Below, in pieces: positions 8,333 through 46,040 of a stretch of DNA of 64,000 bases. The position numbers and the translations under genes are program-made. Source of the stretch: Sistotremastrum niveocremeum HHB9708. Lineage: Eukaryota; Basidiomycota; Agaricomycetes; Sistotremastrales; Sistotremastraceae. The DNA is taken from the NCBI GenBank assembly GCA_001630475.1, contig KV419417.1:424713-488712 (forward strand), read 5' to 3'. The stretch's first letter is position 1, and each line of letters starts with the position of its first letter. The notes under the pieces are model-generated. The model saw nothing but the letters and a program-made list of their open reading frames with translations. It was not told the origin of the DNA and did no database searches.

Positions 8333-9392
8333 AAACTTTGTTCGACCGAACGATCTCTGAGTGGGAATAGATCGTTTTGTTTGTATCACCGTTCTGAACT
8401 ATGCAATAATTTTTGTCCCGGTCAAGTTCATTCATGGATTATGCATGAATAGGCCTACGCCAAACCGGTGCCTGATTCCTGATCTCATCAGTTATCGACA
8501 TGCACGTCAGAGACTGAGAATGACCATAAGCGCTGATTTCGAATGACTAACAAGTTCGGAAGGCGCCAAATCAAACTCCGCCGGAGGTTGTTTGACGAGC
8601 TCAACCAGTGCCTTGCTTGCTTGACGTCAACGTCGGTCGAGTCAAGCGACTGATGGGCACAGAGCGTCATTTTCCCAGGGTCACAGATCTTGAAACCGAA
8701 GTGCATGATCTTGGGCAATCGCGGATTTCGATCAACCGAAGCCGTCGATCCTGTGCTGATCATGTTTTAGGTTGGTGGCTGTGCGTCAAATGACCGTGTT
8801 GAAAAGGCCCTGATCTATGACACTATCTCCAATACTTTGGGCAGGCTGTTAGATATTCGCGATGCGCATATAGCCTCTTTGATCTACCAGGAAAGTTGAT
8901 CGCACGTTGGCGCGGTCCCGACAATTCTAGACTTCCGCCATTTCCCAATATTGGCAGTGCTTTGTTATTGTTTGAACTCAAGTTAGTATCTTTCTTTGCG
9001 CAGCTAAGATTGTCTTGTGCTCGGTGCTCGGTCTATTGCCTTCATCCTGGCCCAGTTTCAACTCAGCTGAAACAGGTACGAAGAACAGACTCGCTAAAAT
9101 ACAAGATCTCCATACAGATCCACAGAAACGACGCTCGGATATCTGGCGGCCTTCGGGATATCAGGCCGTTCCTGACATATGGACTGGGGAGCCAAGCTCA
9201 TATGCACTTAGCGGTCGTACTAGACTTGGTTCGCTACGCTGTCTACGCTGTCGCTCGGTGCTATGCCATTGCCTAACGCTCTCATCAATATGGACCGATG
9301 ACCAGGTCGGTCAGGGATATCACGCATAATATCCTGCTGGATACGCAGCGCGCCACAAGCCTGAGGCATTGCAAAGCCCCAAGCGTTCACAA
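8333..9392. other. Intergenic, no gene seen
   Basis: Just over 1 kb with only short overlapping frames on both strands and no intron-supported gene. Confidence 0.5.
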
Positions 9393-9400
9393 TATAAATA
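9393..9400 (+). promoter_or_regulatory. TATA box of first GCPGCPPGGP peptide gene
   Basis: TATAAATA lies 105 bp before the ATG; the paralogue has TATAAAA at almost the same distance (109 bp). Confidence 0.6.
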
Positions 9401-9497
9401 CCAGCCATCGTATTCCAAGTCCACATCAAACAACACTTCAGCATCCGTCTCCGAGCTCCATTCATCTATTTGAACACATCTTATTCTCATGTTTAAT

Positions 9498-9662
9498 ATG
9501 CAATTCCTCGTCATCCTTTTCGCCATGGTCTTCATCCAATCTGTCGCCTCGGCGCCAACCAGCACCCACATTATCGAGCCTGAAAATATTGCGACGGGCG
9601 CTATTGTTAAGGGATCGATCCAAGCTCGCGGTTGTCCCGGCTGCCCTCCTGGTGGACCCTAA
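9498..9662 (+). CDS. Secreted mini-protein ending GCPGCPPGGP (copy 1)
   Basis: The frame encodes 54 residues. It starts MQFL and continues as a hydrophobic signal peptide to about residue 19 (VASA). A polar spacer of roughly 24 residues follows, then QAR and the C-terminal decapeptide GCPGCPPGGP. I chose the ATG at 9498, not 9489, because the paralogue at 15412 begins at the same MQFL. The Arg before the core could be a processing point; a classical Lys-Arg Kex2 site is absent. The stop codon is followed four bases later by a likely intron. Leader, variable spacer and invariant core resemble a secreted peptide precursor. No named family is recognised. Confidence 0.8.
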   Translation: MQFLVILFAMVFIQSVASAPTSTHIIEPENIATGAIVKGSIQARGCPGCPPGGP

Positions 9663-9665
9663 AAG

Positions 9666-9715
9666 GTGAGTTGGCGACGCAGCTTTTCTCGGCCAAGTAA
9701 TCTGATAATTTGCAG
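9666..9715 (+). other. Probable 3'-UTR intron of peptide gene copy 1
   Basis: GTGAGT donor starting four bases after the stop codon and TTTGCAG acceptor, 50 bp. The paralogue has an intron at the same position. Confidence 0.6.
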
Positions 9716-11661
9716 GCCATCCTCCGGTTAATCATGCCTAATTATCACTATATATTCGCATTCGGAAGATATCTTCGTTCACATATAATCGTGCTCGCAG
9801 CACATTAATCTCTGCGTTACCCTACATCATATATTTATTCCTCTCATAAACTATTACCGTATAAATAGGCACCACTCCTAAGCTATGACCTTTTATCTAA
9901 GACTATTCCTCTTCCTTCTCTTCCTTTCTCGATATCTATTGCTATATTTTAGTCCTTTGCGATGTTATGACTGTAGTTCGATGGATCATGCACTCATCAC
10001 ATCGTTACGCCCTCGAGTTTATCCGTAACCATAAGCACTGTTGAATCTTCCAAATATTCGCAGATACTTCACCATGTGTCACCCGTATACGGAAGAGTCC
10101 TCTCTCTGTCGTCGGCTCGAAGCCTCGACCTTTCCGAAGGTCATACAGGTTCCGAGTCAAAATCGAATGTCGAGATGAACCTTCCCAATCGTGATTTCTG
10201 ATGAACCATTTGAATGAACTTCGTGTGCCTTATTGTTCTCCTTATCGGGTTGTTTACAGTGATTGTTGAGAAACAGGACTTGTTAGGGCGGAGTTGGAAT
10301 TCCGATGTTGAACTCGAACACCCATCTGTTTTTCCAAACGCCCCTCAATGCGATTGGCCTCTTCTACAGCACTACAAAATCAAGTGACTGTATGAGCTCA
10401 CTTCTTGGACACGTACTAGTCTTTACTGACCTCCTTCGCTGTTGCAAAGCCTGGGATGCCCCTCGGACGATGCTTTACAGTGGCTCGGGCTGTAACGATT
10501 GCGGTGGCATAACCTTGGTCCTATCTACACTCGAGCGGATATACACAATGCATCTCTCCGAGCAGCTCAGGCGAGCCACTGGTTCTGGTACCTCTCAGTC
10601 ACAGTGAGTCCACAGTCTGGAGTCGCTCAGGACCGTACCGTACACACTTCGCAGACCTTCTTCGATGCTGGAAACCTCAGAGATGATCAAGCTTGGAGAG
10701 CTCATTCCTCCCAGGGCATGCTCCCACCTGTCCCGTTTGAAGGGCCTGTGCATCTTTCTGATCATGAACTGCAGACTCACGACCTTGATGCTTGCCGGCT
10801 TCTAGTGCAAGTCATGCTTCGCCTCCCAGTATATCCGCTTAGAAGTTGGATCACCTGGATGATACCTGGATGAATGAAACGCCCAGAATTCACACTGCTG
10901 CTGCTATTCCATCTCCATACTCGAAACACCTGGTCCTCCAAAAACTCCGAGACTCCAACTCGCCGTACCTCCGTTTTCGAGACATCACCGTGGGACTTCT
11001 TGTATGATGAGCTAAACGTCCTTCGCTGTCTTCAGTTTGCAAAGTTTTCCATTTGGACTCAGGATCGTCAGACTCCAAGTCAACAATGAACGTCAACTGA
11101 GCTTATAACCAAGGCAACGCCTCATACGACGCGTCATCCCAAAGAGGAAGTTCACGGGCTAAACAACCAACAACAACGCGTCTCGGAAAGCAAGGCGTCT
11201 ACCATTTCAAAGTCCGCTACCTTTCTCGAGGACGTCGTCCCCGTCGTACAGACAGGTCCGCTCTACTGCTACAGACGATGACAACGACAGTACATCCGGG
11301 ACGCTGTTTTGATACACAAGGGCAGCTTTCTGGGAGAGGAGAGGGCAAATCCAGCTGATCAAGCATGCCAAAGCAACCACGGAGACTCAAGCCGATGCCA
11401 CATTCTTGCTCTCCGTCGTATTGTTGTCGTCGATATAAAAACCACTTCGTTCTCCGCCATGCTCTTTTTTCTCTTTCTCCAGTACCAGGATCATCGCCCG
11501 GGCAGTACTCCTCTCCTTGCCTTGCGAACGTGTTACTCAGTTTTCTCGTTCTAGACCCCAATATCCCCCTCCCCGGCTCGTTCTAATCATTCACCTATCA
11601 ACAGCCAAGCTTCAAGCGCCCCAGTCAACGTCCGACAGCCTCTCTCGCTCAAGTTGCAAAG
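9716..11661. other. Intergenic, no gene seen
   Basis: About 1.9 kb. Short frames at 10305-10873 and 10890-11096 lack domain or splice support. A TATAAAA box at 11434-11440 probably serves the gene starting at 11662. Confidence 0.5.
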
Positions 11662-12114
11662 ATGCCTTCGAGCCCGGTTCTTCACGATCTTTTCAAATTC
11701 GACATCGATCTTCCCTCTCTGGATGGCGATAGGAACCTTCATGGCGCCAGTCCTATCTACTTCAACAGGCAAGCTCCTATGGAGGGCATATCTTTGTTAG
11801 ACCCTCAAAAACGCGTTGCTTCGGCTTCCCGGGTCTCCGCAGAGAAGGTCAATATGCCAGCCTCGTCGAAGTTGAAATGGGCTGACGCCATCGGTTCTTA
11901 TCACTACATTGAGGTCGCGGACCGTTCTCAAAGTCTTGAAACAATCGTCAAGCTCATCAAGGAGGAAGTTCAGCGCTATCTTATTGCGGCGGGAGCGGCC
12001 AAGGAATTGCTGGCCCAGTTAAGCTTGGTGGGCATGAGGCAGACTGGTCCCCGGGAATGGCAGGTAATGTTCAAGGTTCGTGCTCGTGTTTTCATCGGCT
12101 GTGCTGGTTACTAG
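11662..12114 (+). CDS. Uncharacterised 150-residue protein
   Basis: A single open frame of 150 residues with ordinary protein composition and a plausible helical segment (about residues 95-125). No signal peptide, membrane segment or recognised domain. The TATA-like box lies 222 bp upstream. Near the C-terminus a GTTCGTGC could be a donor, so the real C-terminus might lie in a further exon. I do not recognise the family. Confidence 0.5.
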   Translation: MPSSPVLHDLFKFDIDLPSLDGDRNLHGASPIYFNRQAPMEGISLLDPQKRVASASRVSAEKVNMPASSKLKWADAIGSYHYIEVADRSQSLETIVKLIKEEVQRYLIAAGAAKELLAQLSLVGMRQTGPREWQVMFKVRARVFIGCAGY

Positions 12115-12305
12115 TGTCGTTGCTGCTATATGCTATCTTGTCGCTTTTAAGATATTGTAATTTGCATGTATACTTAATTGATTCTTTATTCTAATACACT
12201 CGATCTTGCTATAAAATCATCTGTTCAACTCTCGTTTGGTTCAAGAAGCCCCGGAGGGTGCTATGACAATACACATGGAAAATAAGTGGGAGGACTGCGG
12301 AAAAT

Positions 12306-13987
12306 TCAGAACGCCTCAGCGTCCGATATGCTCGCGTACGGTATATTTGACATGCTTGTAAGATTCGAAGTGGGATGGGCAATATGGGAGGGATCAAAGC
12401 TTGATCGTTGCGGGGCGAGGGCGGTTGACAACGTCTCCTCAGCGTATTGGTCGGAGTAGTGTCTCAATGCATCGATGCTCGGTGCATGCGCTAGATCGTG
12501 TTGAGCGTGGTGATGTGGTGCGAAAGCAGGGAATGGTTGATAAGTGTCAGTGCTAGCCGATGCCGCTAACGACCCAAAGAAGGGCATCGCATCGTGGGCG
12601 GCCTGAATGTGCATAGCGAGTTCAGGCTCGAATGAGGACAGCGAAGGGTGGGGATACAGCTCTCGTTGTGCATGTTTTTGTGATTGCCGATTGCGTGGAG
12701 TAGAAACGCGTGAGCGATATGGATGGTAACGTTGAGCAGGGGTGGAGGGCCCAGGTATCGACTCTCTACCAGTGCTGAGATGAGGACTGGGCAAGTCACC
12801 GAATAGAGCCTCTGTGAATTGAGCAGTGCGTGGACTGGCGGTGATTGGAGCGCCGTCATCATAGAATGGAAGAGAGTAGCCTTCCGGAAGAATGATGGGG
12901 TCGAAAAGTGTAAAGCCGATACTATCGGCTGGTCCGCCAATATTGTCTATTGCCGGAATTTGGGCCGGTTGGGGGATGTCGTAGTTGGTGATATCAGGGT
13001 CGGCATTCTTCGAGGTGGAGGCGCTCTCTCTGTTAACATCACCCTTCCTCGTAGAGAGAGGTTTAAAGGTAAAGAGCGGCTTCGCGCTGTCCTTCCTGAT
13101 CAGGGAAGACTGAGCTTCGGTTTGCTGGTTGGAAGATGAGTGAGAAGTGGAGGATGGTTGGATTTGAACATTGGGGTCTGCATATATAATTCCGGGGATT
13201 TGCAGCTGAGGACAGAAGTCTCCAAGATTTCGCCGTGTCCAATACATGTTTGGTAGGTACATGCCACCGGGAGTTTGGAACATCTCATCTCGTGCGCGTT
13301 CGGTGACGAGGCTGAAGTTGGGCCACCAAATCCCAGGCGCGACGTTTTGGATATCATGGAGGACAAGATCCTCTAACCGAAAGGGAGCAACAGAATTGAA
13401 ACCCGGATGCTGTCGAAGTTGTAGACTCTAGGATATCCAGGCTTCAGTGAAGCTGTGACTATATCGGCGATACGCTCACGTCAAAGAGGTCTCTTGCATG
13501 TCTCCACACCTGATAGACGAGATGAAGGCGCAGAACACCGAAACCTTCAATCTCGACAGTATTGAGAGGGTTATCTTCCGCGCCAGGCCACTATGCATTG
13601 TCAGGATGTGATCGTGCACCTCGAAGGAGAACGCACATCAAATTTGAGCGTAAATTTTGAGCCACGAATGAACAGATCCGTTGCTTTGTTCAGCCTTGGG
13701 TCATATAACTTGTGATTGCCGTGGACGAGTTGCATTCCATATTGACCCTCATGTTCCACAAGACGAACACCGGTGGCTTTCCCTCCTCCTCCTTCCTCGC
13801 ATTGGAAATTCCTGAATTCCAAGAAGTCATGTCTCTGGGTTTCTATAAACCGGGTATGAGACACTCCTCGGCTTCTGCAGAGTGCCCTCTGACGAGCTCT
13901 GACTCTCTGACGGTATTCATTCGTGATCAAGAATTCAAGTTTGCCGAGGCGGCTTGTCGGGGTACCAGGATCAGGCCGTTCGAGCAT
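12306..13987 (-). CDS. Uncharacterised fungal protein, Ser/Pro-rich C-terminal half
   Basis: Three exons (13987-13637, 13590-13480, 13427-12306) join in frame to 527 residues. The first about 210 residues are a folded-looking basic region with Arg-rich helices (YRQRVRARQRALCR), an aromatic core and a WW-containing segment. The rest is Ser/Pro/Thr/His-rich and probably disordered. No signal peptide or membrane helix. The N-terminal part has the look of a lineage-specific basidiomycete domain, but I cannot name it. Confidence 0.65.
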
Positions 13988-15302
13988 TGCGGAAGGAAGG
14001 GATAATTGGTTACGATGTATCTCGAGTACGAACAGGTTTGAAGAAGGGAAATGATGGGTAGTAGGAGAGTCGTAGATGGGAGAGGCTCGAATCCAGTTAT
14101 AAAAGAGTCAACCGTGGCACTAGTATTGTTCGACAACGAGAGTCAGCGTGGCTACCCTTGGACCCACTACTGTGATGTGGCCTCGTGCTCCTTTGTTACC
14201 AAACTTACCATAATTGGTCCACTCTAGAACCAGTGGACGGTAGTCCGAAGAGCCGTCCAAAAAATTGCGTAGGATAATACTCAGCAACTAGCATGGGTCT
14301 AGCATAGGACCCGAGTGGACGCAATTTTGTGTCCGTTTTTCGGCTTTCTTCATCAACGACATCGTTGACAGCGTGAGGAAATGCAAGGAAATAATGTCAT
14401 GAGTTGTTTCAGATCATTTCATACTCCGCTATCGAGCTGCCCGACGGCCATGATGCTGACCAAGATGGCTCTGCTTGTGAACAGCTCAGCTTAGTTCACC
14501 GCAATCCGGATTTTTATTTTCTCAGTGCGATATACTCCTTGGCGAAGTCAAAGCTGTATCCCACGCAACACGGACCCACAGGCCCTGACTTGCCTCTGAA
14601 ACAAGCTTCGATGGGCAATCACGGACGAGGATCAGTGGATCAGTATCATCCACAATGGATCGACTTGAATCCTACAATCACGGCTGGCTGTGCTGCTCCT
14701 GATATCGGTTGTACCGTACCGGGGCGCGGGTACATCAATTTCAAAAAGCGCAGCTAAATTCTCCAATGCACGCCTTTCTCTCGTTGAACTCGAATTCTGC
14801 TCTCGCGTCTACCAACACTAGGTACTGTGTCAACCTTGCAATTTATTGCAGTGCTGGCTTGAGTCCTTCAGTCGAGAGTATGGATCATCCTGGGCTGACT
14901 TGGGTCTGCATACTTGTGCGCTAGGACTAGGCTGTCTCGAATTTCACGGTTTCGGCTACGGTCATCAGGTGAAACGGCTCGGTATGAAGGTATCAATCCC
15001 AACTGTCAGGTTCAAACTGCCTTGCTATAGCAACAAAGCCGGGTATCTCCAAAGTTTTTGACTTACTACGGCGTGTATGGCACAGGGTTCTTGTTCTTCA
15101 GCCACTCCTGCAGGTTTTGGCGTCAAATTGTCCGCGACGTACGCGTAGTGTACGCGCTCGCACGGGCTAATACCTAGCCATTCCTATCAACCTGAACAGC
15201 GTCGGCCAGGGACATCTTGCATGACAGTTTTGCCTAGTCAATACTCGAGAGGTGAGACATGGGCAGACGCAAACGCTTTGAAAAGCTCTGTGGCATCATG
15301 GG
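13988..15302. other. Intergenic, no supported gene
   Basis: About 1.3 kb. A 117-codon frame at 14404-14757 has Cys/Pro-rich composition at its end but no domain, signal peptide or homologue that I recognise, so I do not call it. Confidence 0.45.
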
Positions 15303-15309
15303 TATAAAA
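15303..15309 (+). promoter_or_regulatory. TATA box of second GCPGCPPGGP peptide gene
   Basis: TATAAAA 109 bp before the ATG, matching the spacing in copy 1. Confidence 0.6.
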
Positions 15310-15411
15310 TTCTGGGCATTTCGAGTCAAACCTCATCATCCAACAACTCCCACTTGAGTCTCAAGTCCTCTCAGATTCAAACTTCTCATCTATTTTTATA
15401 TATTCTGAACT

Positions 15412-15585
15412 ATGCAATTCCTCAGCATCCTCTTCATTGCTATCGCTTTCCAACTCGTGGCATCTGCGCCAGCAGTCCCATCCCCCTTCGATAACGTCGA
15501 ATCAACAACATCCACAACCTCCACGACTACTGAGACTCCTATCCAAACTCGTGGCTGCCCCGGCTGCCCCCCGGGTGGACCTTAA
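15412..15585 (+). CDS. Secreted mini-protein ending GCPGCPPGGP (copy 2)
   Basis: The frame encodes 57 residues: MQFL start, hydrophobic signal peptide ending VASA near residue 19, a Ser/Thr-rich spacer, then QTR and GCPGCPPGGP. The first four residues, the VASAP signal-cleavage region and the last eleven residues match copy 1, while the spacer has diverged completely. That pattern indicates selection on the leader and the C-terminal core. The two Cys in a CPGC arrangement could form a small disulphide or be modified. The class (defence, signalling or modified peptide) is unknown. Confidence 0.82.
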   Translation: MQFLSILFIAIAFQLVASAPAVPSPFDNVESTTSTTSTTTETPIQTRGCPGCPPGGP

Positions 15586-15588
15586 ACG

Positions 15589-15634
15589 GTCAGTCTTTAC
15601 CCTTGATTTGGAACTTGATCTAACATCACAATAG
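15589..15634 (+). other. Probable 3'-UTR intron of peptide gene copy 2
   Basis: GTCAGT donor three bases after the stop codon and CACAATAG acceptor, 46 bp, at the same place as in copy 1. Confidence 0.5.
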
Positions 15635-16133: not shown

Positions 16134-17556
16134 ATGACAAGCATCTTAGCTCCTCCTGGATTCCGCTCACTGTCTATCCCATTATCCCAATTGTCTCTAG
16201 CGACAGTCCTGAAATGTGGCCAGTCATTTCGTTGGCACATATTCGCTCTCCCGAATGAGACGACAGATCCACAATACCCAACTCATGAATACCGACTCGC
16301 ACTTCATGACCGTGTCATATGTCTCCAACAAGCCCCAGACAGGCTTTTCTATCGCTCAGAGCTCTCAGAACGCGTTGCAGAACGCGACTTTGAACTTCGA
16401 CAGGAGGAGACGCTGGTGTGGCTTCGAGATTATTTTCAGCTTGATGTGGACCTCTTGAATCTTTATGATGAATGGTCTCATAAAGATGAGGTTTTCAAAA
16501 GTTTGAGACATCGTTTCGAAGGCATCAGGATGTTGAGGCAAGACCCTTGGGAAAACTTGATATCGTCGGTCCTACTTCTTAGTAACGTCCTGGACCTATC
16601 TCATCTCGCTCAACACAGATTCATATGCTCGTCGAACAACCATATTTCGCGCATATCAAAAATGGTCCAAAACCTCTGCACCCATTTCTCCTCGCCAACT
16701 CTGTCCATGGCTTCTCCCTCAACCCCTGAATCAACAATATACTATCCATTTCCTCCGCCTTCAGCTCTTGCAGATCCAAGCGTCGCTGAAAAATTGCGAT
16801 CGCTCGGCTTCGGATATCGAGCCAATTTCATTCAGAAAACAGCCCAGATGCTGTTAGAGCAAACCGGATCAGATCAAGCTGCCATTAAATTCCTGTACGA
16901 GTTACGGTCTCGTCCGACAGACGAAGCTCGGGAGGAACTGATAAAATTCATGGGAGTTGGGAGAAAAGTGGCAGATTGCGTTCTCCTCATGAGCATCGAT
17001 AAGGTATATCCACCCGTTTCATCCCACCGCGAACCCTACTGATGAATAACTTCATGCCTAGAGAGAAGTAGTCCCCGTCGACACCCACGTTCACCAAATC
17101 GCGGTCAAACACTACAAATTCCGAGGTTCACCAACAAAAACCGCCATGTCACCCAAATTATACGACGAACTTCAGTCAAAAATGTCCAAGATCTGGGGCC
17201 CTTGGGCGGGCTGGGCCCACTCCGTATTATTCACCGCCGATCTCAAGTCGTTCTCGACCTATGGCCTTCCCACTCCATCCCCGTCACCTGAAAAACCTCG
17301 CCCTTCGAGAGCCGTATCGGATACTCAACTGTTGACGACGCCGACGAAGAATGGCAAGCGCAAACGAAAGGATGAAGGAGCCCCGTCTACGTTCCTACAG
17401 GAAGCTAAGACGGAAATTCTCTCAGAAGCCATTGCAGAGCTTGAGCTAAAGGCCCCCATGAGCGACGTCGCATCAGAAGACCTCTCTATGAACAGTCTTG
17501 CGGAGCGCGTCAAAAGACGAAAGCGCACCCCGTTGCAAAGGACGCAGACGCGATGA
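16134..17556 (+). CDS. OGG1: 8-oxoguanine DNA glycosylase/AP lyase
   Basis: Bifunctional base-excision-repair enzyme that removes 8-oxoguanine paired with cytosine and nicks the abasic site, in nucleus and mitochondria. Three exons (16134-16564, 16619-17003, 17062-17556) give 436 residues. Seen: CGQSFRWH near the N-terminus, the FICSSNNHI motif restored only when the 54-bp intron is removed, the helix-hairpin-helix GVGRKVADC with the Schiff-base lysine at about 260, and VPVDTH with the catalytic Asp at about 279 (spacing of 19 as in human K249/D268). The C-terminal about 80 residues are a basic Lys/Arg-rich tail that may act as a nuclear signal. It is convergent with UFD1. Confidence 0.95.
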
Positions 17557-37860: not shown

Positions 37861-40163
37861 ATGAATGCACTTGCTCAGGAGTGCGAGGGTGTCGAAGCTC
37901 CCGTTTCTTGGGATCTAATGCTCAAGATCGTGTGTCGCCACCTGAATATCGGTTAGTCTACTTGAAGAAAGCCTTCATCCATCGACTCAGCCTCATCGGC
38001 AGCCGTATCTACATCGCGCGATATCAAGCGTATCCTGAAGACCCATTCATGCGGCAAGGTCGTCCAGAAGCTGCTGCAGTGCTCTCTGCAGAACGAGCAA
38101 TACAAGAATGTCTGCGGTGGAGTCTTGATGGCAATCCGGAAATGTTTTCAGGATACGATCCTGACTCGGGAAGTGCACAATCAAAGTGAGTTGTTGGTTT
38201 TTAACCCTCCCGAATCCTCAGTCTCACTGTCTTCGCCCAAGGGCTCTCCATTTTTCTATTCCGCTGTCTCGAGCTTCATGCATCTGATCCTCAGTTTCGA
38301 GATCTTCTTCTATATTGTCTGTTTGAGTTCGCGAAGCCAGAACTCACAACGAGCAAATGTCAGCACGAACAAGCGTATGCAGGCACTGCGAAGCTTGTGC
38401 ACCTCATACCAGATTACGTCGACAATCCACAGATGCTTCAGGTACTCCTAGGGACCCTACACCGCTATCTCTATAGCTTTGGGTCCGTCCCGCACACCAC
38501 TGGAAGTTCAGCAGATCTTTCCGTACTGGAATATCTCGAACTCCCCCTCCTAGTCAAATCATTGATTCCGCTCATTGACAGTGCAAAATCTCCAGGTCTT
38601 TTGTCTTGGGAGACTGTGGATCATGTCTCCGGGATCTTGTCCTGGATTGCCTATCACCAGAGTAGTGCTTTCGAAGGTCCTGAGAGCGCCGATCTTCTCT
38701 CAGTATTCGCCGCTTTTCTGCTTAGTCCATCCCCATCTATCCGGTGTAGAGGACTCCTCGGGCTATTGAATTACCACTCTCCCGATTACATACGGCACAT
38801 ACGCCTTTGCGATCCCCGAATCGTGGCTCGAGTACTCAGCACGGTTGACGCTGATAAGCGATTCCAGGGTGGGCTTAGCACTGTCCTGCCAACTTTTACA
38901 CCTGAGAGCATTCGCAAGCGCTACCATAATCCCTCGGTCAAGACGTACTGCGATGGGAGTCCTTTCAACACTTACGAAGCGGCGTTGCGTATTGCAGAGT
39001 TTGAGCTACATGGTCCCCGGGATGCATCCGAGTCATTCGCCTACCCCTTCTTCCGATTGTTTGGCGGCCTTCTGTGGAACATCGATGCACCCCTCGTCGA
39101 TGACCTTGAAGCTGCTCTCAGATTCCACAAGAAGGATTTTGAGGCCGACGTCGTCAGAATGGCAATGCTGAACCTTATATCCAGAGCCTTGGTGACTACA
39201 GGGGGCCCTGGCTCATTGTCGGGCACTCTGTATGCTACAAACCTCGCTCGCAAACGCGCCGCTGCGGATGGAATGCGACGATGGCCAGATCACTACTATT
39301 TCTATTACAGTACAGTTGCGTCTCGAACTGGCATCCGAAACCATGAGATTGTCTTGAGAGGGCTGGCATGTAAAGGCAACCCACATCTTCGTACCTTGAT
39401 GATGTATGAGTCTGCACTCAACTTGTTCAATATGGCCGTCACTTTTCTAGCCTTGACTCCTTTCGGCGGTCCGCTTTGGGAGACAGGAGCACAACATCTC
39501 AAGGAAGCCGAGATCTGTGCCGTGGCAACCCTCGAGCTATTGAAGCCAGATGTCGCAGAACATTACATCTTGCGAAACATCTCCTGTCTTATACGCATAA
39601 TCACTCGAGTGCCGACCTTTGGATCCTGCCGCTTGTCAACCCTTGTAAGCGCATATACAAACATATCACAGGTCGGGAGCTAATTCGATTTTGTGGCAGA
39701 TGGATGAGCTCGGCTCCACCTCATCGACCCTGCTGTCGGAGAAATGTCTTCTGTTTCCAGAACTGTCGAGAGCCACGAATGATTTTCTTGCACTTTATCC
39801 GATCACGTTAAAGACATGGCTACCGCTTATCACTCGTATGGAGGCCATGGAACATGTCATCCGTGAAGATGCTGAGTTTGTGAGTATATATCGGAGGACA
39901 TCGAGCGACGACCAAATATACCGAACGCTGCCTTCTTTGGAGCGTGAAGAGTTGTGTTGCGCATGGTGTTCTGGGTATAGTGTGGGTCTGAAAAAGTGTT
40001 CAAGGTGTGGAAAGGTGAAATATTGTGGTAAAGAGTGGTGTGTTTTTCTGCGGTTTATCGTTTTCGTCAATCGGTGCTGATTCGTTCTTGTTCCATCAGT
40101 CAGACGGCCCACTGGAAGAAAGGTCACAAAGCAGAATGTATTTCGCCAGAGATATCCGTTTAA
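37861..40163 (+). CDS. MYND-finger protein, tandem copy A
   Basis: Five exons (37861-37951, 37991-38185, 38242-39644, 39700-40037, 40100-40163) join to 696 residues. The large central region is all-helical-looking with motifs WIAYHQSSA, SIRCRGLLGLL, RYHNPSVK and RLFGG shared with copies B and C. The C-terminus is a complete MYND zinc finger: CAWC, then CSRC, then YCGKEC, then HWKKGHKAEC, with the last Cys/His group completed only by splicing the final 64-nt exon. MYND fingers bind proline-rich peptides; the role of this family is unknown. Intron 1 is 39 bp. It is a lineage-specific expansion by tandem duplication. Confidence 0.85.
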
Positions 40164-40597
40164 TGAGGTGGCCCTGGTTGCTTCCAGATTGAATGGGTGA
40201 CTGTCCGGGTTATGGCGCAGATACTTTGGTGATTTGGATTTTCAACATTTACGACTGGCCAGTACTAGTATTAGTACTGGTATACGTACTAGAATTGTAG
40301 TGTGCATATGAAAGATTCTCGACTCGGTATTTCAATCATGTTATGGGTCGGAGTTCGTTCTCAGGCTCAGCTTCGTCTTCTATCCAACGGCAACGTGTAG
40401 GTCTAGTGCCCGGGTCCCGTAGCGTGCACTGGCCAATGCTGTATCAGGCTAATCTTACTCATCTACAGACTGACTATGGGCCTGCCGTTCCGTGGACGTT
40501 CTTTGGTCACCAATCCACTCGCAATCGCAGTCCTCTCCAGTAATCGCTCATCGTGAACTCACCTGCGACTCCTCTGCGCACTCCGAGTCGTGTAGCC
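40164..40597. other. Intergenic between MYND A and B
   Basis: 434 bp. It repeats a segment also found just upstream of gene A (a stretch reading GCTGTATCAGGCTAATCTTA occurs at both 37694 and 40438), so the duplication included the promoter. Confidence 0.6.
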
Positions 40598-42931
40598 ATG
40601 AATGCCCTCGCGAAAGAATGTGAGAGCTTCGAGTCTCCCGTTTCTTGGGACCTCATGTGCAAGATCGTCTGCTGCCATCTTGATATCGGTTGGTTGTCCA
40701 CTTGAAAGGCACCTGCAGCTATCGATTTAGCCACGTTGTCAGCCGTGTCAACGCCGCGCGATCTCAAGCGCATCCACAAGACTCGTTCGTGCGCTGTGGT
40801 TGTCCAAAAGCTGTTGGATTGCTCTCAGCAGAACGAGGAATACAGGAATGTCGCTGGAGGGATATTGATGTCAATGCGTAAATGCTTTCGAGATACTATT
40901 CTGAGTCGGGAAGTGTTTGACCAAAGTAAGTTCAGCCATTTAGCTGATTCACTTCATGGGCTCATTGTATCTGTTGAAGAGCTCTTTCACTTCACCTTTC
41001 GCTGTCTTGGCCTCCATACATCGGACCGCCAATTCCAGGAGCTTGTCCTCAAGTGTCTTTTTGAATCAGCGCGTGCGGGCATTGCGGCGTGTTCTTACCA
41101 GCAAGAACAAGCCATCATGGGCACAGCCAAGCTTGTGCAGCTCATCCCCGATTACGCTGACGACCACCCGATGCTTCAGGTACTGCTGGGCACCCTCCTC
41201 CGCTATCTGGGACACGCTCTATGTTCTTACAGAGCGTCTAAGTGGCGTTCAATGCCTGTGTCCACCTTGAATTCTCTGCAGCTTCCTCTTCTGGCCCAGT
41301 CACTCTTGCATCTCATGAATGTGCCAGAATCACAGGTCGCCTTGCGCTGGGAAACATTGGATGTCGCTTCTAAGATCTTAACATGGATCGCCTATTATCA
41401 AAGCAGCGCCTTTTCCGAACCCCATTGCGACAACGACCCCTCGGTCTTTGTCGCTTTCCTCCTTAGCCCATCACCCTCAATTCGATGCCGAGGACTACTT
41501 GGCCTTCTGAATTTCCATTCTCCCGACTATATACGGGATGCGCGCCTTTGCGATCCTCAGATCGTCAATCCGATAATCAGCGATGGAAACATGGATGAAG
41601 TATTCAAAGGGCCCCTACAAGAAGTCTTACCCAGCTTCACAACTGAGACAGTTCACCAGCGTTACCATAATCCCACGGTCAAGGTCGACTCTGATGGCAG
41701 TCCTTTCAACATCTACGACACGGCGTTGCGTGTCGTTGAGTTCGAGCTGCACGGTCCTCAGAATGTTGATGAAACATTCGACTATCCACTTACAAGGCTC
41801 TTTGGCGGCCACATCAAAGATATCACTTTACCGCTTATAGCTGACCTCGAGGCTGCCCTAAGATTCCATGATCAAAACTTCGAAGCCGATGTCTTGAGGC
41901 TTGGGATGCTTAATATGATCATCAGAAAGTTGAACACCCCAAAAGACAGGTTAGAAGTATTATCTTCCACCTTGTATGCGGTGCACGTTGCTCGCAAACA
42001 CGCTGCTGCCAACGGAAGACGTCGATGGCCACATCACTGCTACTTCTACTACGCTACAATTTCATCACAAACTGACATTCGGAACAATAATATTGCCATG
42101 CAAGCGGTGCTATGTGAGGGTGACACACATCTGTACCTGCTGCTGATGTATGAGAGTATAATCAACCTGTTCAACCTGGCCGTCACTTATATAGCTCTCG
42201 CGCCAGAACGTGATAGAGTGTGGGAGATGGGTATAGGGTATCTGAAGGACGCTGAAGCCGGCCTAGCTTCTACACTGGCAGCACTTAAACCAGACACTGC
42301 AGAATATCACATCATGCAGCTTATCTCCAGTGTTATACGGCTGATCACCCGAATTCCAATTTTAGGGCCTTGCGACTTGTCGACGCTTGTAGGTCTCTTG
42401 GTGATTTGTTTTCGTCGTTGGCAGCTGAAATATGCCCTGGTATAGCTGAAGGAGCTAGAACCTCCTGCGACAACCTTGCAATCAAAGAAGTGTTGGCTCT
42501 TTCCCGAAATGTATCAAGCCATCAATGACTTCATATCGCGTCACTCTTCCACGTCGAATGGGTGGTCTTCAATTGTCAATCAAATGACCAACATGGAAAG
42601 CGTTACTAGCGAGAATTCCAAGGTTGCGAGTATATACCGGATTCCGCCTAGCACTGCTCTGTTCCAACGAGCCTTCCCTGCTGCAACTCGCTCCGAGCGC
42701 ATTCGCATGGACTCTTGTTGCGCGTGGTGTCATGAGTACAGCGTGGGTCTCAAAAAATGTTCAAGATGTGAAAAGGTGAAATATTGTGGGAAAGGATGGT
42801 GCGTTATCATTATCTGATAATTTGCCGACGGGATGATCTGATCGTTGACCTCAATCGTTAACCATTATGGGTGTAATAGCCAGAAGGCTCACTGGAACAA
42901 AAGTCACAAATCGGAATGCATCTCGCCTGAA
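40598..42931 (+). CDS. MYND-finger protein, tandem copy B, last exon frameshifted
   Basis: Five exons (40598-40688, 40731-40925, 40980-42388, 42446-42798, 42880-42931) as read give 699 residues. It has the same architecture as A, with exon 1 (91 nt) and exon 2 (195 nt) identical in length. In the last exon an A-run has five bases where copies A and C imply four. As a result the frame leaves the conserved HWNK-SHKSEC track and stops at 42931 instead of 42944. The final His and Cys ligands of the MYND finger are then lost. This may be a real mutation or a homopolymer sequencing error. Everything upstream is intact. Confidence 0.8.
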
Positions 42932-42944
42932 ATACCTATTTGAC

Positions 42945-43671
42945 AAGGTCGCTCTTGTCACTCAAGGCACCGTCAGCTTACTCTGGATTGTCTGGCAACG
43001 CCGAGATGAATTTGTAAAGGCCCCTTGTTGATATATCATGTTTCGCTGTAAAGATCAATAATCGCTGTTTCGGAGGAAGATAATAAACGGTGTACAACCT
43101 TATGTGCATCTTGAAACAACTTGATCAAACTCTCCTTGCAGATTCGAGAATCGACACCATTCGAGATGTGCCGATGCCAGATGCCCCGTTTGTCAGCAGA
43201 TCATAGTCTCAGGCCATCATGCAACGCAAGACGTGGATACTTGGATTGAAGATTCTATGAGGAATACTAACCTCATGAGCGATTGTACGCCATGACTAAT
43301 GTATCTGTTAACCGCGTTCGTCACTTTTCTACCTTTTTCCCCACATTCTGACGAGCTGAGTCCGTTGTGAGAGACACTCGAGCGCTTGCTTCTTGGTCCA
43401 ATAGCTATTGGCGGCGTAGAAAGCTTATGTTGAGTATTCGCATCTTCGTAAGCCTATATGTCATAGAGCTTGAGTACATTCAGTATGTCCACATGTTCGG
43501 GATCCCCGCTAGTAGTAGAGACATGCAGGGGTCCGAGAGCTGAGTTTACCATTGCCCTCAACCACCCGCACCGTCATCCAATCACTATTACGCAACTTAA
43601 TACACTCCATCCAGCCTGGTTTCTTGGAAAAAATTCGTACGACTGAAGGCCGTACAGTCATATGTGTATCT
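42945..43671. other. Intergenic between MYND B and C
   Basis: About 730 bp. An in-frame upstream extension of copy C begins at 43552, so its start could be earlier; otherwise nothing. Confidence 0.5.
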
Positions 43672-46040
43672 ATGTCTAATCTTGCAAACGAATGCGACGA
43701 TGTTGCTCGACGGTCCGTGCTCCCGAGCTGGGATGCTATGTGCGATATCGTCTGTCGTCATCTAGGAATCGGTCAGTACTTTACTCTATCTAGTCTATCT
43801 CCATAATTCTTACATGCTTTCAGCCCTTTCATCGCCCCGTGAGATCAAGCGGATTCACAAATCCAACACAGGAGCAGAAGTCATCCGCAAGTTAACACGG
43901 TGCTCCGAAAAGAATCATCAAAATAAATATGTCTGCGCGGGCATCTTGATGGCCATCAGGAAGTGCCTCAAAGATGCGATTCTGGTTCAAGAGATGGTCG
44001 ACCAGAGTGAGTGAGATACACCTGTGCCCCGTGAAATTCCGTTCACTCACCATGTCATGAAACGCACCGCTCGCCTCAGACCTATGGGGCTTCATATTCT
44101 ACTGCCATGATCTCGAGTCCGACGATACACACTTCGCTACGCTTGTGTTTCGCTCTCTCCTTGACTTAATCCAGGCACAAACTCCATGTGGTTGTCTTTA
44201 CGGACAGGCAGAGAGCGGCATTCCAAGGCTTACGCGGGAAATCCCTGTCTATTTTGACAACCCTGAAGTTCTGAGGCTCATATTTACCACTCTATGTGCC
44301 TATCTCTCCTCTCTCAGTTCGTACAGATCGACCATGGGGAAGCCATTGCCCGAGCCTTTCATCGAATACATCACACTACCACAGTTAGCCCAGAACATCG
44401 TTGATCTCCTTCAAACGCCGCGATCTCTATTGCTCTCCTCCTGGGATATATTCGACCCAATGTCCAAAGTTATGGCTTGGATTGCATACCATCAGAGCAG
44501 CGCCATCCTGGACCTTCCGGATAACGCTGGGCTTTTGCTCTTTATCACCTTTCTCCAGAGTCCCTCGGTTGTCATACGATGCAGAGGCATGATTGGCCTC
44601 GTTAACATGAAATATCCGGATCATCTCTCGGAGGTGCGCGTCTGCAATCCGCAATTGACCGTCCATTTGATGAGCAGTTCTAAACCCTCGAAAGAGGTTC
44701 CGACCTCAGAAAAGGGTGGACCTTGGCTGCTGCCATCTGATCTTCCATATGAAACCGTCTCTGAACGATATCGTAATCCGCTGGTCAAGTTCCTCGATAA
44801 TGGTGCTCCTTTCAAAGCGTATGAGGCGGCATTGCGGGTCGTCGAATTTGAGCTCCGTGGATCACAGGACGTGAGAGAATCCTTCTCATATCCATGTACC
44901 AGGCTTTTTGGCGGCCGTGTTGCGCTCAGCCTTAACCTCATCGACGACATGGAAATCGCTTTAAGATTCCATAAGAAGAATTTTGAAGCGACCGTTCTGA
45001 GACTCGCACTCTTAACTGTTGTGTTGGAGGATGCGCTAGACTTCGGAGAGAAGAACCCCGACGTCAAGGATACCCTCGATAAACTTCCCGCAGTCATCAA
45101 ATCTGAATCAGATCGAGCAATCAAAAAATGGCCAGACCGTTGGTACCCCTACTATGCTATGATAAAATCTCAGTCTGGACATGACTACCTCGACGTTGCT
45201 CAAACGTCGCAGGGTTGCTCGGATAGCACTCACCGCCATAAGTCCCTTATGGTGTATGAGATCGCCTTCAACATGTTTACCACAGCTGTGGTCTCCATTG
45301 CCCTGTCACCTTTTGAGTCCCCTGCTTGGGAGGCTGGTGTACGACATTTGAGAGAGGCCGAAGGGGGGATTTTCATGGCAATGCAGGTCCTCCCATCTGG
45401 ATGCGTTCAACATCGAATGGCACAGGTTTTGTCCTGCTTGCTACGCCTCATCACGAGGTTTTCTGTTTTGGGCCCGTGCGAACTGCCAGCCATAGTGCGT
45501 ATTCTCTGGACGCTGCTTAGAAGATATTTTGGATTCTCAATTTACTCTTGCAGGTATCCGAGCTCAAACAGCCATTAATGACTTTGCGCTCGTCAGGCAC
45601 TAAAGTTCACACCGAATTAAGAAATGCCGCAACGGAATTTGTGTTGAACCATGCGCGTGCATCGAAGGCGTCGGTGCAACTTCTTGCACGCCTGGCCCAA
45701 TTGAAGCAGGTTGCAGAACATCATCGGAAGTGGCAGGTCATCTATCGCGACATGGAAGGAGACGGGCAATTCCAGGATGACGTGAACGCATATGGAGAAC
45801 AGGAACTCATTGCACGTCGACTGACCCAATGTGCCTGGTGTGGACGATCTAGCTCTGGGTTAAGAAAATGTGCTCGGTGCGAGAAAGTGAAGTATTGCGG
45901 AAAAGAGTGGTTCGTTTGTGTTTCTCCCTAATCCGGTGTGGTTTCTGATCAAGTTCATGGATGCTTCCACCAACAGTCAGACTGATCACTGGAAACAGGG
46001 GCACAAAGAGGAGTGTGTGTCTCCAGTGATCACAGTGTAG
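43672..46040 (+). CDS. MYND-finger protein, tandem copy C
   Basis: Five exons (43672-43771, 43824-44006, 44080-45494, 45554-45909, 45977-46040) join to 705 residues. It shares with A and B the intron positions and phases and the motifs WIAYHQSSA, IRCRG, RLFGG and RYRNP, but is the most diverged copy. Its C-terminal MYND finger is complete: CAWC, CARC, YCGKEC, HWKQGHKEEC. The start at 43672 aligns with the starts of A and B; a start at 43552 would add 40 residues. Confidence 0.83.

Follow-up and report, generated by a model that had tools for sequence, protein, structure and literature searches.

Two short genes and their paralogues

The 64,000-nucleotide stretch of DNA analysed here (C24:424713-488712, hereafter the window) comes from the genome of Sertulicium niveocremeum HHB9708, earlier placed in Sistotremastrum and now assigned to the Sistotremastrales in the NCBI taxonomy. 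This genome, with 34.7 Mb in 111 contigs, was the only fungal DNA covered by the searches. The window carries two short genes for predicted prepropeptides on its forward strand: gene A at 9498..9662 (54 amino acids) and gene B at 15412..15585 (57 amino acids), both ranges including the stop codon and the two starts lying 5,914 bases apart. The original prediction had placed two open reading frames (ORFs) of 54 and 57 residues here, 5.9 kb apart, with like leaders, unrelated spacers and an identical tail, and this description was borne out by the alignment. Twelve of the 19 leader positions are identical, the spacers barely align, and the last 11 residues agree at 11 of 11 positions. Starting gene A at the in-frame ATG of position 9489 would lengthen its product to 57 amino acids; the paralogues begin at the equivalent of 9498. 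In a protein search of the whole genome, A and B find each other with E-values of 2.7e-9 and 3.1e-9, whichever of the two is used as the query, and on this comparison their resemblance is not a matter of chance.

Genome searches with each of the four proteins gave matches at four places only, namely A, B, gene C (C16:428622-428789, forward strand) and gene D (C44:201894-202082, reverse strand). Proteins A and B as queries reached all four members, while C and D each reached A and B, and neither of these two recovered the other. Gene C was found with gene B as the query at an E-value of 7.3e-6. Gene D scored 0.62 with B and 0.09 with A as the query, and when used as a query itself it gave 0.012 for A and 0.28 for B; its membership is accepted because of its exact core pattern, its layout and the promoter element that it shares with A and B, beyond these poor search scores. 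The DNA pattern TGYNCNGGNTGYCCNCCNGGNGG, with at most one mismatch allowed, occurs at four sites in the genome, which are the four genes, all with 0 mismatches, and the reversed control gave none. With a looser DNA pattern and at most two mismatches, one extra site appeared on C17, which lacks the second Cys codon, and the reversed control gave one site. The searches of this genome yielded two further genes, those on C16 and C44, and the family is larger than first described.

The four genes form a paralogous family with a common layout: a hydrophobic leader, a free spacer, an Arg, the core [GS]C[PA]GCPPGGP and a stop. The core had been described as invariant GCPGCPPGGP, which is exact for both window genes and does not extend to the whole family, as gene C has GCAGCPPGGP and gene D has SCAGCPPGGP. 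The positions that are invariant in the alignment of all four are M1, Q2, one Ile before the tail, the Arg and C-x-G-C-P-P-G-G-P. The spacer differs among the paralogues in both length and sequence, and that of gene B is rich in Ser and Thr.

The Arg and core, R-GCPGCPPGGP, are encoded at 9627..9659 in gene A and at 15550..15582 in gene B, both on the forward strand. Over these 11 codons, A and B differ by six synonymous and 0 non-synonymous substitutions. When the six possible gene pairs are compared over the 11 codons, each has five or six synonymous differences and zero to two non-synonymous ones, and the number of second-position changes is 0 in every pair. The codon comparison shows that selection acts on the tail, and it is the strongest evidence that the frame is translated and that the tail is the working part of the product. 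Since the spacers of A and B hardly align, the leader and the tail have been kept while the middle was left free.

Promoter element, TATA-like and intron-like signals, and database searches

The comparison of the upstream regions revealed one block common to genes A, B and D. In gene A the element GTCGGTCAGGGATATC is located at 9306..9321 and in gene B the element GTCGGCCAGGGACATC at 15201..15216, both on the forward strand, and their CGG begins 190 and 209 bp before the ATG, respectively. The 14-mer CGGYCAGGGAYATC occurs with 0 mismatches at three sites in the 34.7 Mb, all of them upstream of family genes and on the coding strand, starting at -190 (A), -209 (B) and -250 (D); the reversed control gave none. 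As a rough estimate with equal base frequencies predicts about one chance match in the genome, it is very unlikely that all three sites lie at family promoters by accident. The promoter word is shared by A, B and D, and it may switch these three of the four genes together, which would point to co-regulation.

The best shared 16-mer has 15 identities between A and D as well as between B and D, 14 between A and B, and 12, which is no signal, in each pair with C. In a null of 400 pairs of 400-bp pieces drawn at random, four pairs shared a best 16-mer with 16 identities, one pair reached 15 and nine reached 14; when overlapping pieces were excluded, the maximum was 14, reached in 7 of 400 pairs. 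With up to two mismatches, the 16-mer has 84 sites in the genome, compared with 23 for the reversed control. The downstream DNA was inspected by eye for 30 of the 84 sites, the three family genes included, and for some further sites. A copy with two mismatches at C8:446763 is followed, 351 bp downstream, by a signal-like ORF of 69 amino acids. Another copy, GGTCGGTCAGGGATAT at C13:606999-607015, is identical to the gene A element over 16 letters (a one-mismatch copy in the genome search) and stands about 100 bp upstream of what looks like a spliced gene for a small Cys-rich protein with a signal-like leader (MQLTSRISFLAIITAALFASNAVA...). This site, about 3.6 kb from a cluster of STE3 genes, overlaps the TATA box of the Cys-rich gene, and part of the likeness may be coincidence. 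The other inspected sites showed, by eye, no pattern of a secreted small ORF downstream.

Copies of the element near STE3 genes bear on another explanation, according to which the family encodes a secreted, unprenylated peptide that is produced in response to pheromone and serves as a mating signal beside the STE3 system. We consider this decidedly unlikely. Besides the one-mismatch copy near the cluster on C13, it is favoured by a copy with two mismatches at C35:27651-27666, which stands 310 bp upstream of the first matched STE3 codon and on the same strand. Among 600 random pieces of 600 bp, the best copy had one to three mismatches in none, at least four in 596 and 0 in four, and these last four fit pieces that hold the family's own promoter sites. 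However, the C35 copy belongs to one of the six STE3 loci examined (the C13 matches at 527.5, 614.8 and 625.6 kb were left out). At the other five, one of whose starts was placed by hand, the best coding-strand copy in the 600 bp before the first matched codon has four mismatches or more. Moreover, none of the four family genes is located on a contig with an STE3 match (C13 and C35), the link was picked out afterwards, from 84 sites, and a CaaX pheromone-like ORF exists beside the receptors on C35. The mating link is a lead, and a weak one. The C35 ORF, MDELVTLSLSQDPEDFGPVDWDAYHNPWGWCVVA, near 24.89 kb on the forward strand, is short, has a CaaX end and is likely a conventional lipopeptide pheromone.

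A TATA-like box lies 102-140 bp before the ATG in all four genes: TATAAA at 9393..9398 (-105) in gene A and at 15303..15308 (-109) in gene B, both on the forward strand, TATAAA at -102 in gene C and TATAAG at about -140 in gene D. At random positions in the window, the same test was positive in 110 of 3000 cases. Four of four genes likewise have an intron-like signal, 46-56 nt long and beginning 2-14 nt past the last sense codon, which is suggestive; in the corresponding null, such a signal lies within 25 nt of 365 of 3450 window positions (10.6%). The predicted intron of gene A (50 nt, 9666..9715, forward strand) begins 3 nt after the stop and has donor, branch-like and acceptor signals, and that of gene B (46 nt, 15589..15634, forward strand) also begins 3 nt after the stop and has a CTAAC branch-like site. 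A frame running past the stop had been named as a result that would count against the original prediction. At the level of the sequence, three of the four genes end in ...GGP followed by the stop, while for gene D the answer depends on splicing: the predicted splice joins TG and A into a stop right after ...GGP, and the unspliced frame has one extra Trp.

The search of the protein database with gene B gave nine word candidates and none at E <= 10, and the query made from the alignment of the four sequences gave 584 candidates and again none at E <= 10. As the query itself is missing from the results while the OGG1 protein of the same genome is present, these searches are no evidence that homologues are absent, and a match of 11 residues scores poorly against 5.8 billion sequences. 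The genes look unannotated, seemingly even in the catalogue of their own genome. The DNA pattern of core plus stop was not found in viral contigs and had three matches in prokaryote genomes, which were taken for chance (a rough estimate gives about 0.2 matches at 50% G+C, and more in G+C-rich genomes). The core string and its variants were not found in the open-licence literature of PubMed Central, and gene B, the sole query against PDB sequences, gave no match at E <= 10. In Pfam, genes A and B had matches below the cut-off only ('New glue' for B, E 0.0028, 17.8 bits compared with a cut-off of 31; DUF1505 for A, E 0.2), and C and D had none at E 0.1; in NCBIfam, no match was found for any of the four at E 1.

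That none of the four products is returned by the protein database would also fit ORFs that arose by chance, or a decayed repeat, with no protein made from either. This explanation is highly improbable, since the codon pattern already contradicts it: the core substitutions are almost only in third positions, in four copies on three contigs. The shared promoter word, the TATA-like box and the intron-like signal speak against it as well.

The comparison of unmasked ORFs across the loci, within about 16-40 kb per locus, revealed no convincing shared neighbours. Of the ten cross-locus pairs, seven consist of the peptide genes themselves or of their opposite strands. The other three, with identities of 23-37% and E-values from 9e-6 to 3e-4 (composition correction off), are weak and were taken for low-complexity matches. 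A Pfam scan of seven neighbouring ORFs gave one match below the cut-off (AKAP2_C, E 0.044) and otherwise none at E 0.1. Beside the A/B pair, at 16134-17553 of the window on the forward strand, lies a gene, interrupted by one or more introns, for a DNA glycosylase of the OGG1 type. The database record that it matches agrees with the window at 100% over the final 164 residues; over residues 1-281 the identity is 92%, in an alignment gapped as by an unspliced intron. Three successive long ORFs (428, 569 and 477 amino acids) at 38397-45578 on the forward strand are related by eye and appear to be a local gene family.

Predicted secretion and release of the tail

The signal-like leaders of gene A (MQFLVILFAMVFIQSVASA, 9498..9554, forward strand) and gene B (MQFLSILFIAIAFQLVASA, 15412..15468, forward strand) were assessed with a simple hydrophobicity test against the 303 ATG ORFs of 40-120 amino acids in the window, genes A and B included. 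Their hydrophobicity is reached by 1.0% and 2.0% of these ORFs, respectively, and both have a -3/-1 site; for A, B and C taken together, the level is one reached by 1-3%. A leader score above 2.2 combined with a -3/-1 site was found in 11 of the 303 ORFs and a score above 1.8 in 22. All four proteins have a hydrophobic leader with a plausible signal-peptidase (-3/-1) site, one of them weak, from which we infer that the four products may be secreted.

The invariant Arg directly before the core would be a natural cut site, occupying P1 in all four proteins; P2, which is Lys or Arg in a classical Kex2 site, is A, T, I and T, and P4 is Ile in three, Gly in one and Leu in none. Compared with the expanded Kex2 motif LxxR, as it is used in the excerpt of PMC8528282, the family has IxxR in three of four members and GxxR in one. 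Coprinopsis peptide precursors expressed in Pichia gave products that were apparently cut after a single Arg, according to the part of PMC9769878 cited here. The genome has two loci that match the P domain, a domain carried by kexins.

We favour, tentatively and with a little less than even confidence, the reading that the four genes encode prepropeptides that are cut after the single Arg to give a CxxC decapeptide acting extracellularly, probably as a signal. The leader would direct the protein into the secretory pathway, and the short free spacer would be a pro-region to be discarded. The cut after the single conserved Arg would then be made by a kexin-like or other trypsin-like protease, releasing the C-terminal decapeptide [GS]-C-[PA]-G-C-P-P-G-G-P. 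Its two cysteines might close a four-residue CxxC loop, the disulphide being a guess, and its Pro/Gly end would carry no basic residues to trim. Outside the cell, the decapeptide would act as a signal between hyphae, and this role is likewise a guess, made by analogy. The computed M+H of GCPGCPPGGP is 841.333 in the reduced form and 839.318 with the disulphide; the corresponding values are 815.318 and 813.302 for GCAGCPPGGP of gene C, and 845.328 and 843.312 for SCAGCPPGGP of gene D. A core that is nearly fixed in four paralogues argues for a single presumed target or receptor, and it speaks against a toxin or antibiotic under diversification. The processed secreted-peptide precursor of the original prediction is partly supported, as the best general reading, by the signal-like leaders, the selection on the tail, the invariant Arg and the layout in four paralogues, but it fails a defining feature of each of the classes of CaaX pheromones, KEX2-processed repeat proteins (KEPs) and dikaritins.

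Several points weigh against the release of a decapeptide signal. The family consists of predicted genes, and no relative in another species was shown by the search of the protein database, which did not return the query either. Gene D is the least typical member: its similarity to the others is poor (E 0.012 to 0.62 in the genome search), its leader is weak, with a hydrophobicity reached by 9% of the 303 window ORFs, and its P4 residue is Gly, where the other three have Ile. For gene C, the closest version of the promoter element, at -193, is a poor one with four mismatches. A dibasic site is present in none of the four proteins, and a single Arg is weaker evidence than KR or RR. Finally, the sequences were already known when the tests for introns and TATA boxes were drawn up.

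The absence of a dibasic site also fits the main rival, which we regard as unlikely: a small secreted protein that stays uncut at the Arg and whose CxxC-PPGGP tail works in place, for instance in metal binding or in extracellular thiol-disulphide redox during wood decay or oxidative stress. In the tail, conservation centres on the CxxC pair, and the string Cys-Pro-Gly-Cys occurs once in a paper on thioredoxin-mimetic peptides, known here without its context (PMC10968419). Against an uncut protein stands the pattern of a leader and tail that are kept while the spacer drifts, and an invariant Arg would be unneeded in a mere linker.

A ribosomal natural product, in which the released core is further modified (cyclised, thioether-linked or other) into a defensive or antimicrobial compound, appears quite unlikely. 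The family is small and paralogous, which agrees with this origin, and a leader, a variable spacer and a fixed core are typical of modified-peptide precursors. However, the cores of natural products usually differ between paralogues, whereas those described here hardly do. None of the four genes has a UstYa match within 10 kb, other modifying enzymes not having been searched for, and the core is without a Tyr for UstYa chemistry.

If a decapeptide signal is indeed released, the family could be a new class of mushroom peptide hormones, characterised by a C-terminal CxxC decapeptide, a plant-hormone-like layout and a dedicated promoter element in three of the four genes; we consider this possible but rather doubtful. 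It may have escaped notice because such ORFs are passed over by annotation and by screens based on repeats. To our knowledge, few mushroom peptide signals outside the CaaX pheromones are known. The idea lends itself to direct tests, as the peptide mass is known and the exact promoter word is confined to these genes, and the combination of a conserved C-terminus, a free spacer and a shared rare promoter word suggests an approach to gene finding.

Comparison with known peptide classes

The CaaX lipopeptide pheromones of Agaricomycetes resemble the predicted products of the family in being short secreted peptides from small precursors. This class was rejected, as the family has no CaaX box, all members ending in ...GCPPGGP (gene D possibly with an additional Trp), and no linkage to STE3: the 25 STE3 matches all fall on C13 and C35, and the family genes are on C24, C16 and C44. 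In MSDIN precursors and those of other cyclic peptides made by prolyl oligopeptidase, the core is followed by a further segment, the follower, and a secretion leader is lacking. Here, the stop comes directly after the core in three of the four genes (in D, after one Trp if the intron is kept) and the leaders are signal-like, and MSDIN membership was likewise rejected.

Dikaritins (ustiloxin, phomopsin and asperipin) are similar in having a leader and a short core. Their feature is a Tyr in a repeated core; the core of the present family has no repeats, no Tyr or any other aromatic residue and no UstYa match within about 10 kb, which excludes it from this class. The search for UstYa (PF11807) gave 53 exon-wise matches in the genome, none of them on C24 or C44, and the nearest to gene C is 40.6 kb away, on C16. 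Some of the UstYa matches form local groups, on C33, C37 and C52, and the fungus may make several UstYa-type peptides.

The likeness to KEPs lies in the signal-like leader, the short, presumably secreted product, the possible kexin-type cutting and the occurrence in mushrooms. As defined in the excerpt of PMC7329392, KEPs have at least three tandem repeats of at least eight residues between KR, KK, RK or RR sites. The screen described in the available part of PMC6339444 works with fragments between dibasic sites, and its first step sets aside the C-terminal part of each protein. The present family differs in that its core is single, unrepeated and placed at the very C-terminus, after a lone Arg instead of a dibasic site (PMC6339444, PMC7329392, as excerpted), and KEP membership was rejected on the single core and the lack of a dibasic site in all four proteins. 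Both published screens target repeats between dibasic sites, so that single-core precursors, these genes among them, go unnoticed (PMC6339444, PMC7329392). One KEP type, with 12 members and a DUF3328 gene near eight of them, is described in PMC7329392 as confined to Sistotremastrum; by that description, the requirement for repeats sets it apart from this family.

The Qsp1 peptide of Cryptococcus has 11 residues and comes from a secreted pro-peptide that is matured extracellularly by Pqp1, the peptide then being imported by Opt1, according to the part of PMC7537855 cited here. Like the peptide predicted here, it comes from a basidiomycete and is a single short peptide cut from a secreted pro-peptide, and as far as this description reaches it is likened to the family by outcome, not by sequence. 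Maturation by Pqp1 and import by Opt1 are features of Qsp1 (PMC7537855). Peptides of this type are taken up by an oligopeptide transporter and act inside the cell, and in these traits the comparison with our family ends. The closest layout is found outside the fungi. Plant peptide hormones of the CLE, GOLVEN and SCOOP type come from paralogous precursors in which a leader and a free pro-region accompany a single conserved short peptide close to the C-terminus. In what is taken from these systems here, the layout alone is alike, as the kingdom, the core and the proteases are different. It is this plant-hormone-like layout, together with the Qsp1-like outcome, that leads us to favour an extracellular signal.

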